From: an uncultured Bacteroidota bacterium
GTDB lineage: Bacteria > Bacteroidota > Bacteroidia > UKL13-3
Assembly (NCBI GenBank): GCA_903910445.1
Contig: CAIVZR010000047.1
Location: 1 to 32,614 of the forward strand
Length of the DNA stretch: 32,614 bases
Reading direction: 5' to 3'
Within the stretch, counting starts at the first letter, position 1; the number at the start of each line of letters is the position of its first letter. Made by a program: the position numbers and the translations under genes. Positions 29,286 to 32,167 of the stretch are shown piece after piece. Below the pieces are notes generated by a model that was not told where the DNA came from, ran no database searches, and saw nothing but the letters and a program-made list of their open reading frames with translations.

Positions 29286-30050
29286 TTATTTAATGCCTTT
29301 CACGATATCGATAAAGCTGCGTGCTTGCAATGCTGCACCACCAATCAATCCACCATCAATATCGGGTTGTTCGAAAAGCTCCTTCGCATTGTCGGGCTTC
29401 ACGCTGCCTCCGTATAGGATGCTGATATTTTCTGAAAGCTCATCACCATATTTATCGGCAATGATTTTGCGAATGAAGGCATGCATTTCCTGAGCCTGAG
29501 CCGAGGTGGCAGTTTGGCCTGTTCCTATTGCCCATACCGGTTCGTAAGCAACAACAACGTGACGCATTTGTTCTTCTGGCAAATGAAATAAAGCATCACG
29601 CAATTGCGATTCGATGACTTCATAAAACTTACCATTATTACGTTCTTCCAATGTTTCACCAACACAATAGATGGGTTGCATCAAATTGGCGAGTGCGATA
29701 TCTACTTTTTTAGCCAACCAATCGTTGGTTTCGTTGAAGTAGGCGCGGCGTTCGCTATGACCGATGATCACGTAATCGCAACCTACCGATTTAAGCATGG
29801 CAGCCGAAATTTCCCCAGTATAGGCGCCATTGGGCATATTGCTGCAGTTTTGGGCTCCCAGTTCGAGCATGGGCATACCAAAAAGCAAGGGTTGTAATTT
29901 GTATAGATGAATGAAAGGAGGGGCGAGCACAACGTATACCTGGCTGGTTACTTCTTTCGAATAAAGCTCAATAATTTCTTTCACCAGTTGAACACCTTCG
30001 TCGAAGGTTTTATTCATTTTCCAGTTACCGGCTACAATTTTCTTTCTCAT
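29286..30050 (-). CDS. tpiA: Triosephosphate isomerase
   Basis: 254-residue TIM-barrel enzyme interconverting dihydroxyacetone phosphate and glyceraldehyde-3-phosphate in glycolysis and gluconeogenesis. Catalytic residues are all present: Lys11 (GNWKMN), His98 (VIIGHSERR), Glu170 (AYEPVWAIGTG), plus the phosphate-gripping ISILYGGSVKPDN and GGLIGGAAL near the end. Length is standard. First gene of a minus-strand operon with rsmG (8-nt gap) and murQ. A TATATTTG element 41 nt upstream is the likely promoter. Confidence 0.97.
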   Translation of the reverse strand: MRKKIVAGNWKMNKTFDEGVQLVKEIIELYSKEVTSQVYVVLAPPFIHLYKLQPLLFGMPMLELGAQNCSNMPNGAYTGEISAAMLKSVGCDYVIIGHSERRAYFNETNDWLAKKVDIALANLMQPIYCVGETLEERNNGKFYEVIESQLRDALFHLPEEQMRHVVVAYEPVWAIGTGQTATSAQAQEMHAFIRKIIADKYGDELSENISILYGGSVKPDNAKELFEQPDIDGGLIGGAALQARSFIDIVKGIK

Positions 30051-30091
30051 GATATTTTTTTACGCTTAATGGGGGCTATTAATAAGGAATG

Positions 30092-30099
30092 CAAATATA
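30092..30099 (-). promoter_or_regulatory. -7 promoter element of tpiA operon (TATATTTG)
   Basis: Exact TAnnTTTG on the minus strand, 41 nt before the tpiA ATG. The -33 region is weak. Confidence 0.5.
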
Positions 30100-30260
30100 A
30101 AAAGTTATCTAAGGAATTCGTAAGGAATAATGATGGAAATTAATGGTGGTGGATGGTGGGAGTTGGGCGAGGGAATGATGTTTTTAGTCTCAAATGACAA
30201 TACATTGTTGCCATTTAAACATCATCAATTGGATTTATTTCGAATAAAGAAATATCTACA

Positions 30261-30300
30261 CGATTGGCCCCTACAGGGCAGAATACCGAGGGGGTGAATT
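30261..30300 (+). repeat. Palindromic repeat, copy 1 (degenerate)
   Basis: GCCCCTACAGGGC core (30267-30279) followed by AGAATACC; lacks the CTACCCAC leader found in copies 2-4 but has the same TAC centre as copy 2. Confidence 0.55.
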
Positions 30301-30304
30301 TTTT

Positions 30305-30356
30305 CTACCCACGATAAGCCCTTACAGGGCAGGAATACAAAGGGAAATTCTAATTT
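30305..30356 (+). repeat. Palindromic repeat, copy 2
   Basis: CTACCCAC leader, then the palindrome GCCCTTACAGGGC (30318-30330), then AATACAAAGGGAAATTCT. Nearly the same frame of flanks as copy 3, with a different palindrome. Confidence 0.75.
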
Positions 30357-30412
30357 GAGGATTGCTGCCGTATTCTCTCTTTTCTCACACTCCGCCCTCA
30401 CTCTGATTTTTG

Positions 30413-30478
30413 CTACCCACCATATGTCCCTAAGGGACATGAATACAATGGGAAATTCTTATTCATATAATAATTTGA
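30413..30478 (+). repeat. Palindromic repeat, copy 3
   Basis: CTACCCACCAT leader, a perfect 8-bp-arm palindrome ATGTCCCTAAGGGACAT (30424-30440), then GAATACAATGGGAAATTCT and an AT-rich tail shared with copy 2. Confidence 0.8.
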
Positions 30479-30498
30479 AAATTGAAGTAAGGAGGGTG

Positions 30499-30534
30499 TT
30501 GTATTATGTTCCATTGGAACATTTGGTGGGTAGA
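30499..30534 (-). repeat. Palindromic repeat, copy 4 (inverted)
   Basis: Read on the minus strand: CTACCCACCAA, palindrome ATGTTCCAATGGAACAT (30506-30522), then AATACAA. It differs from copy 3 by two changes in each arm, and each is compensated in the opposite arm. Confidence 0.78.
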
Positions 30535-30549
30535 ATAACGGTTTCCCCA

Positions 30550-30580
30550 GCCTGACCATCCGTAGGATGGTTTGACGAAA
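30550..30580 (-). repeat. Palindromic repeat, copy 5 (inverted, partial)
   Basis: Read on the minus strand: ACCATCCTACGGATGGT (30555-30571), 7-bp arms around the same TAC centre seen in copies 1 and 2; the CTACCCAC flank is absent, a GGCTGGGG flank follows. Confidence 0.55.
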
Positions 30581-30629
30581 ATGTTCAAGTTAGAATTCGT
30601 CTTTAGAATAAACATCAATAATATTTCTA

Positions 30630-30682
30630 GGCCGTTGGTGAGGCTTAAGCTTTGGCTTTCACACAACACCAACTGCGGCGTC
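30630..30682 (+). repeat. 53-nt intergenic repeat, copy R1
   Basis: Begins GGCCGTTGGTGAGGCTT and ends CACAACACCAACTGCGGCGTC-like (20 nt core ACAACACCAACTGCGGCGTC). The inner part is diverged from R2 and R3. The ends are inverted to each other (GTTGGTG / CACCAAC). Confidence 0.75.
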
Positions 30683-30778
30683 AGCAGAGATTTAGTGTAA
30701 ATATTATTCGGAATATTTTAAATTAAAAAAGTGTTAGAGAACAAAATAGTGCTACAAATTCTTAAATCCATTTTATTA

Positions 30779-30831
30779 GCGCCGCAGCTGGTGTTGTGGG
30801 TTTGGCATGTGCGCAAGCCTCACCAACGGCC
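30779..30831 (-). repeat. 53-nt intergenic repeat, copy R2 (inverted)
   Basis: On the minus strand: GGCCGTTGGTGAGGCTTGCG, then CACATGCCAAACC, then CACAACACCAGCTGCGGCGC. Preceded, like R3, by a TTAAATCC-containing AT-rich stretch. Confidence 0.8.
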
Positions 30832-30890
30832 AAATAATTGACGGGACTTGCTCATAAAATAATGAGATAATTAAATCCGTTATATTTATT

Positions 30891-30944
30891 GACGCCGCAG
30901 TTGGTGTTGTGACGTTGGCATCTGCGCAAGCCTCACAAACGGCC
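30891..30944 (-). repeat. 54-nt intergenic repeat, copy R3 (inverted)
   Basis: On the minus strand: GGCCGTTTGTGAGGCTTGCG, then CAGATGCCAACGT, then CACAACACCAACTGCGGCGT. Same orientation as R2, opposite to R1. Confidence 0.8.
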
Positions 30945-30985
30945 TTGTCATTTAAGACCCCAAAAAACCTTCCCAAAAACCCGAA

Positions 30986-32167
30986 TTAGAATTTTCGATA
31001 TTTCGCGGTTTGTTCGAATACGGAATTGAGAATTTTCTTATCAATTTCGCTTAGCGATAAATGCCTGCGTTGCATCACCAGCTCGGCTACTTCAAACACT
31101 TTATTCACCTGGTACACCTCCATTCCATGTGCACCACCCCAACTAAAATCCGGCACAAAATTGCGCGGGAATCCCGATCCGAAAATATTGCAAGCTACAC
31201 CCACCACCGTTCCTGTATTGAACATGGTATTTATTGCACATTTGCTATGATCGCCCATGATGAGTCCGCAGAATTGCAAGCCTGTGCGATCGAATTTATC
31301 ATTCTTATAATTCCAGAGTTTTACTTCCGCATAATTGTTTTTGAGGTTGCTATTATTACTATCGGCACCAATATTACACCATTCGCCAAGCACGCTATTG
31401 CCTAAAAATCCATCGTGGCCTTTATTGCTATAGCCAAACATCAAACTATTATTCACCTCCCCACCAGCGCGGCATTCAGGGCCTAGTGTGGTAGCTCCAT
31501 AAATCTTGGCACCCATCTTCAATACGCTGTGTTCGCACATGGCAAACGGGCCTCTCACCATACAACCTTCCATCACTTCGGCATCGGCTCCAATATAAAT
31601 GGGTCCTGATTGGGTATTTAAGATAGAAGCATTCACCTTCGCCCCCGCTTCAATAAATAACTGGGAAGCATCGCCTATGAGGGTGTTATGAGCAGGCAAG
31701 GGTTGAGAGGCACGCCCTTGGGTTAAGCGTGCGAAGTCGGCACGAATTTCCCGGTCGTTATACGTAAATAAATCGGGCAACTGGTTAATCACGGTGAGCT
31801 CCTCCGCCTGGGTATCATAAAAAGTGAGTCCGCTGAAATTCAATTTTTGCGGCTCTTTCAATTTGGCAGCGATGAGTTCCCCCTTGTATTTGAGGGCATC
31901 GCCTGGGGTGAGGTGTTTTATTTCTTCGGCGAGGAGGACATTCGGACAAACGCCAGCATTAATAAATACCGTATCGTCGTCGGTAATGAGGCAAGGATAT
32001 TTTTCCTGAATGGGCTCGGCTGTTTTATAACTCACGGGGCATTGCGTATGGCGCTCCCATTTTTCTTTGATGGTGAGGATGCCAATACGAAAAGCACCCA
32101 CAGGGCGAGTTGATGCCAGGGGGTAGAATCGTTCGCGGGAAGGAGGGTCAATCAGGACGAGGTTCAT
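30986..32167 (-). CDS. GlmU-like sugar nucleotidyltransferase / left-handed beta-helix protein
   Basis: 393 residues. The N-terminal half (LVLIDPPSRERFYPLASTRPVGAFRIGI) is the Bacteroidota version of a nucleotidyltransferase domain (NTP_transf_4 type, found in proteins named GlmU family); it lacks the classical LAAGxGTRM loop. The C-terminal half is a left-handed beta-helix of hexapeptide repeats (IGADAEVMEGCMVRGPFAMC, GAKIYGATTLGPECRAGG), with SNNSNLKNNYAEVKLWNY and GDHSKCAINTMFNTGTVVGV as in acyltransferases. The expected role is in nucleotide-sugar formation such as UDP-GlcNAc for the envelope, inferred from the family. It is transcribed alone between the repeat block and rpmE2. Confidence 0.85.
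   Translation of the reverse strand: MNLVLIDPPSRERFYPLASTRPVGAFRIGILTIKEKWERHTQCPVSYKTAEPIQEKYPCLITDDDTVFINAGVCPNVLLAEEIKHLTPGDALKYKGELIAAKLKEPQKLNFSGLTFYDTQAEELTVINQLPDLFTYNDREIRADFARLTQGRASQPLPAHNTLIGDASQLFIEAGAKVNASILNTQSGPIYIGADAEVMEGCMVRGPFAMCEHSVLKMGAKIYGATTLGPECRAGGEVNNSLMFGYSNKGHDGFLGNSVLGEWCNIGADSNNSNLKNNYAEVKLWNYKNDKFDRTGLQFCGLIMGDHSKCAINTMFNTGTVVGVACNIFGSGFPRNFVPDFSWGGAHGMEVYQVNKVFEVAELVMQRRHLSLSEIDKKILNSVFEQTAKYRKF

Follow-up and report, generated by a model that had tools for sequence, protein, structure and literature searches.

A stretch of 32,614 nucleotides from the genome of an uncultured Bacteroidota bacterium (hereafter the window) contains an intergenic block in which short palindromes recur in both orientations with differing sequences. 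The locus raises the questions of what kind of element these palindromes belong to, which enzyme might have spread them, and whether the matched differences between their arms reflect selection for a hairpin. The initial annotation of the window described five palindromic copies, some of them framed by a shared leader and trailer, and regarded them as a possible REP-like family mobilized by a transposase of the RAYT/IS200 type.

The leader and trailer surrounding variable palindromes are real. The arrangement CTACCCAC–hairpin–AATACAA is found three times in the window without a mismatch, at positions 30305-30340 and 30413-30448 of the forward strand and 30499-30533 of the reverse strand, where shuffling expects 0.00 occurrences, and the sequence letters reported previously are correct. 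Alignment of 36 genomic copies together with their upstream flanks places another hairpin (H1) in a fixed register approximately 45 nt upstream of the CTACCCAC hairpin (H2). The full unit of about 90 nt is thus composed of H1 and H2 arranged head to tail. All five of the palindromic copies are present; however, they are not equal in status: the H1 hairpins are represented by copies 1 and 5, which form two units with the H2 hairpins of copies 2 and 4, respectively, and in copy 3 H2 stands alone. The first copy starts at position 30254, beyond the range of 30301-30580 that the initial annotation covered.

The first unit, U1, is of type 1 and occupies positions 30254-30346 of the forward strand (R1 match of 69.9 bits); it is predicted to fold into two hairpins with z values of -2.5 for the forward and -2.45 for the reverse strand. 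Its H1, identified from the sequence, alignment, and predicted fold, has the structure GCCC-CTACA-GGGC at positions 30267-30279 and is preceded by the leader CTACACGATTG. The H2 of U1 (30305-30340, pattern match and predicted fold) has the leader CTACCCAC, the stem GCCCT/AGGGC at positions 30318-30330, and the trailer AATACAA. The second unit, U2 (30378-30454, forward strand, R1 match of 44.4 bits), contains H2 alone, with the hairpin ATGTCCC-TAA-GGGACAT of copy 3 at positions 30424-30440 (sequence and pattern match), and has a pyrimidine-rich tract in the place of H1, as do other half units. An AT-rich spacer of 38 nt (30455-30492), delimited by the gap list and spacer sequences, separates U2 from the inverted unit U3, which is of type 2 and occupies positions 30493-30582 of the reverse strand (R1 match of 85.2 bits; z of the predicted single-stranded DNA fold of -3.4 for the reverse and -2.4 for the forward strand). 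The hairpins of U3, both on the reverse strand, are H2 with the sequence ATGTTCC-AAT-GGAACAT at positions 30506-30522 (sequence, pattern match, and predicted fold) and H1 with the sequence ACCATCC-TAC-GGATGGT at positions 30555-30571 (sequence, alignment, and predicted fold). The predicted folds of the two strands of the units are about equally stable.

The stem of H2 is 7 bp long and is closed by a loop of 3 nt (TAA, TAC, GAA, CAC, AAT, or TAG in various copies), instead of the 8-bp symmetry proposed initially. A CTAC foot, which is most evident on H2, is positioned 7-12 nt 5′ of the stem, and the trailer is AATACA. The C/T difference between copies 3 and 4 at arm position 5 is matched by G/A in the partner, as had been noticed; however, the match claimed for arm position 8 would require a pair spanning a single base, which is impossible in a hairpin, and this position varies freely in other copies. 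Predicted folds suggest a third stem between the G-run following H1 and the leader of H2, but units from Flavobacterium lack the G-run. In half units, a pyrimidine-rich tract (purine-rich on the other strand) replaces H1 or H2 and often adjoins GCTGTATT; examples are located at positions 30368-30412 of the window, at L135:2826-2914, and in several units of L130.

Across the 3.43 Mb and 107 contigs of the genome from which the window comes (G000), the leader-trailer pattern has 45 exact matches and the backward control has none, which rules out that the copies are absent elsewhere in the genome. Since the pattern is silent on the sequence between its ends, it provides a fair test for palindromes: 32 of the 45 centers, found by their ends alone, form a perfect 7-bp Watson-Crick stem, compared with 0.1% of shuffled centers. 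In a relative from the same genus (G003), the stem is present in 16 of 27 centers, which are those of its 29 copies that lie within the stretches used. The arms vary, with the opposite arm matching, and include ATGTCCC, ATGTTCC, ATGCCCC, ATGTCCT, ATGACCC, TTCTTCC, CGCCC, and others. A covariance model of the two hairpins has at least 85 matches in G000 with E ≤ 0.001 among the 150 of 748 candidates that were scored. Both hairpins are recognized by a strict stem criterion in 46 of 91 uncut units, a count that is low because a recurrent A·C mismatch breaks the stem, and in 64 when one mismatch is allowed, a criterion that 27% of shuffled H1 zones also pass. Type 2 is the most common, accounting for 62 of the 91 units.

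Among 94 units from 30 stretches, 93 are located outside open reading frames of 130 amino acids or more. The units occur in both orientations and in clusters of up to eight, and their neighboring genes have every orientation. Inverted neighbors have preferred gaps of 24-27 nt (11 of 24 pairs in the +- arrangement) and 34-37 nt (7 of 20 pairs in the -+ arrangement), and the spacers between them are AT-rich and variable in sequence. Many units occupy corresponding sites in G000 and G003, and one type 1 pair, L130:2654-2924 compared with L156, seems to have opposite orientations in the two genomes. The repeat block of the window is missing from three other genomes of the genus, in which the corresponding intervals are 46 (G002), 65 (G004), and 100 bp (G001) long, as opposed to 915, 933, and 957 bp in the window, respectively. 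The short intervals imply that the block was either gained in the lineage of the window or lost in the others. What these genomes lack is the entire intergenic block and not single units, so that the comparison yields no clean insertion boundaries by which the mobile unit would be delimited. An imperfect 30-nt inverted repeat (77%; 30171-30200 and 30945-30974) surrounds the entire repeat block, which may be due to chance.

The genome contains seven Y1_Tnp genes, located on C6, C11, C18, C25, C43, C60, and C92, five of which are of subclass 1.2 and two of subclass 2.6 type; as judged by eye, each is flanked by its own set of palindromic repeats. Inverted units of the window's family, 537 and 547 nt apart, enclose the genes on C11 and C43, an arrangement that bears out the initial suggestion of a REP-like family connected to a transposase of the RAYT/IS200 type. 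The C6 gene is accompanied by a related set, CTATTAACGGG...AATACAA, which is also caught by the unit model; such a leader is present in 7 of the 91 uncut units. Both flanks of the C43 gene match G003, which has the gene at the corresponding site. For the C11 gene, the match to G003 covers the downstream side and both flanking units; upstream, it stops approximately 95 nt beyond the left unit (at about position 5510 of L052). This loss of match indicates that the neighborhood of the gene changed on one side, and the sequence points to a border formed by rearrangement or insertion. The dN and dS values are 0.005 and 0.156 for the C11 gene, and 0.011 and 0.012 for the C43 gene, the latter being based on five substitutions and therefore uninformative. 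No tnpB was seen among the listed neighboring open reading frames of the Y1 genes inspected by eye. Units of type 2 were seen neither within 600 nt on each side of the seven RAYT genes in G000, inspected by eye, nor beside the three in G003. The genes in G001 and G002 are accompanied by an H1 resembling that of type 2 (CAAACGTTCC), and it is therefore possible that the type 2 enzyme belongs to that branch and was lost or lies in an assembly gap.

The motifs D-H-x-H, W-Q, and Y---Q--HH are shared by all 12 aligned proteins, which comprise those from C11, C43, C6, C25, and C18 and seven homologues. Residues D54, H55, H57, W95, Q96, Y115, Q119, H122, and H123 are invariant in all 12, and one row reads DHMH. 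Subclass 1.2 of TnpA_Y1 transposases, as described by Quentin et al. 2018 (PMC6006769), is characterized by DH[IV]H, WQ, and Y---Q--HH, a length of about 148-150 residues, occurrence in Bacteroidetes and Cyanobacteria, and low copy number; by this signature motif, the transposases can be assigned to subclass 1.2. According to the same source, the subclass generally lacks typical IS200 ends, and its Table 1 gives REP as "no" for subclass 1.2. However, repeats are present and abundant beside subclass 1.2 genes, contradicting the published entry. The automatic REP scan described in that paper required GTAG or GTGG at a distance of 0-2 nt from the stem, and would therefore miss repeats with a CTAC foot 7-12 nt away, which suggests why motif scans that demand GTAG at the stem overlook such repeats. 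No description of repeats of subclass 1.2 was recognized among the open-access papers that the literature searches listed. Five of the seven Y1 proteins pass the NCBIfam model NF033573 (IS200/IS605) with 65-76 bits at a cut-off of 55, and in the model NF047646 (REP transposase) four of these five reach 28-38 bits, below the cut-off of 80, and one has no hit; the proteins from C92 and C60 pass NF047646. The best structure matches of the predicted model of the C11 protein (pLDDT of 86) are the transposases of IS608 and ISDra2, with E of about 4e-9, and the REP transposase 4er8 matches with E of 8e-5.

Across 58 genomes including G000, the window's form of the repeat occurs 45 times in G000, 29 times in G003, and no more than twice in any of the 56 remaining relatives. 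In G001 and G002, hairpins are located beside the RAYT gene and few are elsewhere, with at least five and at least six model matches, respectively. There is no model match in G004 among the 150 candidates scored per genome, and its sole Y1 gene has internal stops. An alignment scan of named genomes with C11 and C43 identified 16 loci, including ones from Flavobacterium, Mucilaginibacter, and uncultured Bacteroidetes. An H1-H2 pair is present on one or both sides of the gene in nine of the ten loci that were inspected by eye. In Flavobacterium and Mucilaginibacter, the same layout flanks related genes and the copies are dispersed; the H2 pattern of the group is dispersed in 8 of 10 homologue genomes, at 57 places, with none for the control.

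A pattern modeled on H2 was sought in 121 genomes belonging to the same genus as G062 (F. anhuiense record), and was found in 14 of them, with the control found in none. A relative of the RAYT is encoded in 50 of the 121 genomes, and in seven of these its identity to the query is 85% or higher. All seven contain the pattern in 6 to 21 copies, one of which is within 100 bp of the gene; one of the seven genes (G073) has an internal stop. The pattern is present in 13 of the 50 genomes with any RAYT hit and in 1 of the 71 without (p = 3.5e-5, phylogeny ignored). The 37 genomes that have a RAYT hit and lack the pattern are read as probably having other stems, and several genes that are 50-65% identical to the query have different stems behind a CTA[CT] foot. 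Among 50 loci, 44 of which have an intact gene, at least one foot-tagged hairpin is present at 35 of the 44; the foot is on the correct side of 69 of 152 hairpins, compared with 28 of 152 for the wrong-side control. C11, with stems of 4-5 bp, C6, and C25 score zero under the 6-bp criterion for foot-tagged hairpins. Because the loci partly overlap and are related, some being the same gene twice, the foot-tag count is support for the layout and not a statistic. Beside the homologous genes there are 28 different foot-tagged stems with 15 different 5-nt cores, all of which are hairpins, a hairpin being the search criterion.

The 36 aligned units contain both-side changes in 40 cells, compared with 7.6 in shuffles that ignore relatedness, and 91.3% of cells are paired, compared with 80.6%, for a structure that was read from the same 36 sequences. 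Double changes occur at 8 of 14 pairs, and sliding the partner column by one to three positions reduces pairing to 25-40%. One pair of H1 is broken in 14 of the 36 units, mostly by the recurrent A·C mismatch. In the case of TnpA_REP of E. coli, a bulge in the REP stem is described as important for recognition (PMC8266576); by analogy, the recurrent mismatch alone need not be a sign of decay. Long aligned stretches of G000 and G003 are mostly 85-98% identical. Of 51 G000 units tried, 26 have a spanning alignment, and after eight with less than 90% identity were left out, 18 orthologous units with 226 stem pairs were counted. Their stems changed eight times, each time on one side alone. Four of the eight positions are paired only in G003, two only in G000, one in both, and one in neither. 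Changes affect 8 of 452 positions in stems, 4 of 144 in leaders, and 46 of 1047 in the remainder (p = 0.010 for stems against the remainder). The units that were left out include replacements of a whole hairpin, with both arms and nearby spacer (H2 of L146/L163 and H1 of L038/L160), and the site in the window is itself one of them, with a unit of type 1 in G000 and of type 2 in G003 at the same place. The whole-hairpin replacements, together with the exclusively one-sided changes in orthologs, indicate that a matched pair of arms characterizes a version that spread in its entirety, after which single copies drift slowly and without matching changes.

The initial annotation took the paired changes as a sign of selection for a hairpin and held that many unmatched changes would speak against it. 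The H1 pair broken in 14 units and the one-sided ortholog changes are partly of this kind. Constraint on the hairpin is supported, since stems change more slowly than the rest of the unit despite the broken H1 pair and the one-sided ortholog changes; however, compensation at the same site was not seen in the 18 orthologous units, and the paired changes separate spreading subfamilies. Alternatively, template switching within the hairpin, or gene conversion from one copy to another, might produce both matching changes at once, which would then say little about selection. The lack of double changes in the 226 pairs and the exchange of hairpins with both arms and adjacent spacer speak for such an origin, and the slower change of stems against it, as does the diversity of stems and cores beside homologous genes, which remain hairpins and for which conversion within a genome offers no explanation. 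We regard the one-step origin as possible and do not favor it.

The units could alternatively act as RNA hairpins, terminators or stabilizers of mRNA that are kept for the benefit of the host. Their intergenic position agrees with this, and REPs have been hypothesized to contribute to termination and to the stability of mRNA (PMC3733652). However, terminator-like or promoter-like sites are absent from positions 30050-30990 according to prediction, the window has no Rfam match, and the units are confined to some lineages and occur in clusters and in both orientations irrespective of how the neighboring genes are oriented, which makes such a function very improbable. A closer competitor is a miniature IS200/IS605 transposon, in which H1 would be the left end and H2 the right end on one strand, as in IS608, the CTAC and AATACAA regions would contain the cleavage sites, and the copies would be gene-less insertion sequences and not REPs. 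In the alignment, H1 and H2 are in direct orientation, which is also how the two ends of elements of the IS200 family are oriented to each other; the NCBIfam scores of the five proteins and the top matches of the predicted structure also point to the IS200 side. By contrast, the gene is enclosed by two whole inverted units and not by H1 and H2, the seven Y1 genes of G000 all differ, with neither the C11 nor the C43 gene duplicated among them, and 24 of the 91 units are, by a rough criterion, half units with H2 only. The units are thus unlikely to be miniature transposons. Elements of both interpretations would be combined if subclass 1.2 were a separate origin of REP-type systems from the IS200 side, with the unit a 90-nt miniature of fused IS200 left and right ends, and with several sets of enzyme and repeat co-diverging within a genome, each gene having its own stem and the CTA foot remaining constant; we propose this only tentatively.

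The repeats of the window are probably REP-like non-autonomous single-strand elements spread by a Y1 transposase of subclass 1.2, which together constitute a REP/RAYT-type system. The analogy with IS608 and TnpA_REP predicts that the protein binds hairpins folded from single-stranded DNA and makes its cut next to them. The Y1 (HuH) transposase, encoded between inverted units of the like kind, would recognize the hairpin folded on single-stranded DNA, cut and rejoin the strand near the foot or trailer, and thereby spread units between genes. We infer from these analogies that binding, cutting, choice of strand, and movement of the units are carried out by this enzyme, and the mobility of the units is itself deduced. 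The sequences themselves show the units, the constraint on their hairpins, their dispersal, the enclosure of the gene by inverted units, and the association of gene and repeat across Flavobacterium. Several observations weigh against the reading: many units have kept their sites between G000 and G003, type 2 units were seen beside none of the RAYT genes of these two genomes, the C11 neighborhood changed on one side, the wrong-side control for the foot also scores, 37 Flavobacterium genomes with a RAYT hit lack the pattern, and the predicted folds of the two strands are similar. A branch of single-strand transposases that has been described without a repeat now has one, and hence a likely substrate, and the named DNA target makes a subclass 1.2 enzyme testable at the bench. 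The combination of an IS200-like enzyme with a REP-like genome layout bears on how IS200 transposases became domesticated REP enzymes.

Systems of REPs, BIMEs, or REPINs with RAYTs are described as palindromes dispersed in intergenic regions, with the gene flanked by inverted repeats (Nunvar 2010, PMC2817692; PMC6006769). The family from the window shares with them the short dispersed intergenic palindromes, the inverted pairs, the presence of several sets per genome, and the possession of its own set by each transposase gene. The flanking of a Y1 gene by inverted repeat copies is also shared, and is found for C11 and C43, in G001 and G002, and in Flavobacterium and Mucilaginibacter. A REPIN consists of two inverted repeats with a spacer of set length, which the preferred gaps between inverted units resemble. 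By contrast, the foot is CTAC located 7-12 nt before the stem, whereas that described for REPs is GT[AG]G at 0-2 nt, and the enzyme has Y---Q--HH in place of the Y---NP reported for class 2 RAYTs. In Bacteroidetes, subclass 2.6, or RAYT group 5, is described as having genes with atypical structures on their flanks that recur elsewhere. The main repeat of the window differs from these in belonging to another enzyme branch (subclass 2.6 has NH[IL]H and YIH[NQ]NP) and in the repeat itself. The window contains a second repeat family, GGCCGTTGGTGAGGCTT...CACAACACCAACTGCGGCG, at positions 30629-30683 of the forward strand and 30780-30838 and 30885-30945 of the reverse strand, which has four exact matches to the strict pattern in the genome and also flanks the Y1 gene on C92 (NH[IL]H, YIH[NQ]NP; passing NF047646); it looks like the atypical repeats described for subclass 2.6. 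The predicted HuH Y1 fold of the enzyme and hairpins that would be used on one strand are reminiscent of the IS200/IS605 elements IS608 and ISDra2; unlike these, the system has one gene per repeat set, positioned between whole inverted units, instead of a mobile gene in multiple copies, each enclosed by one left and one right hairpin.
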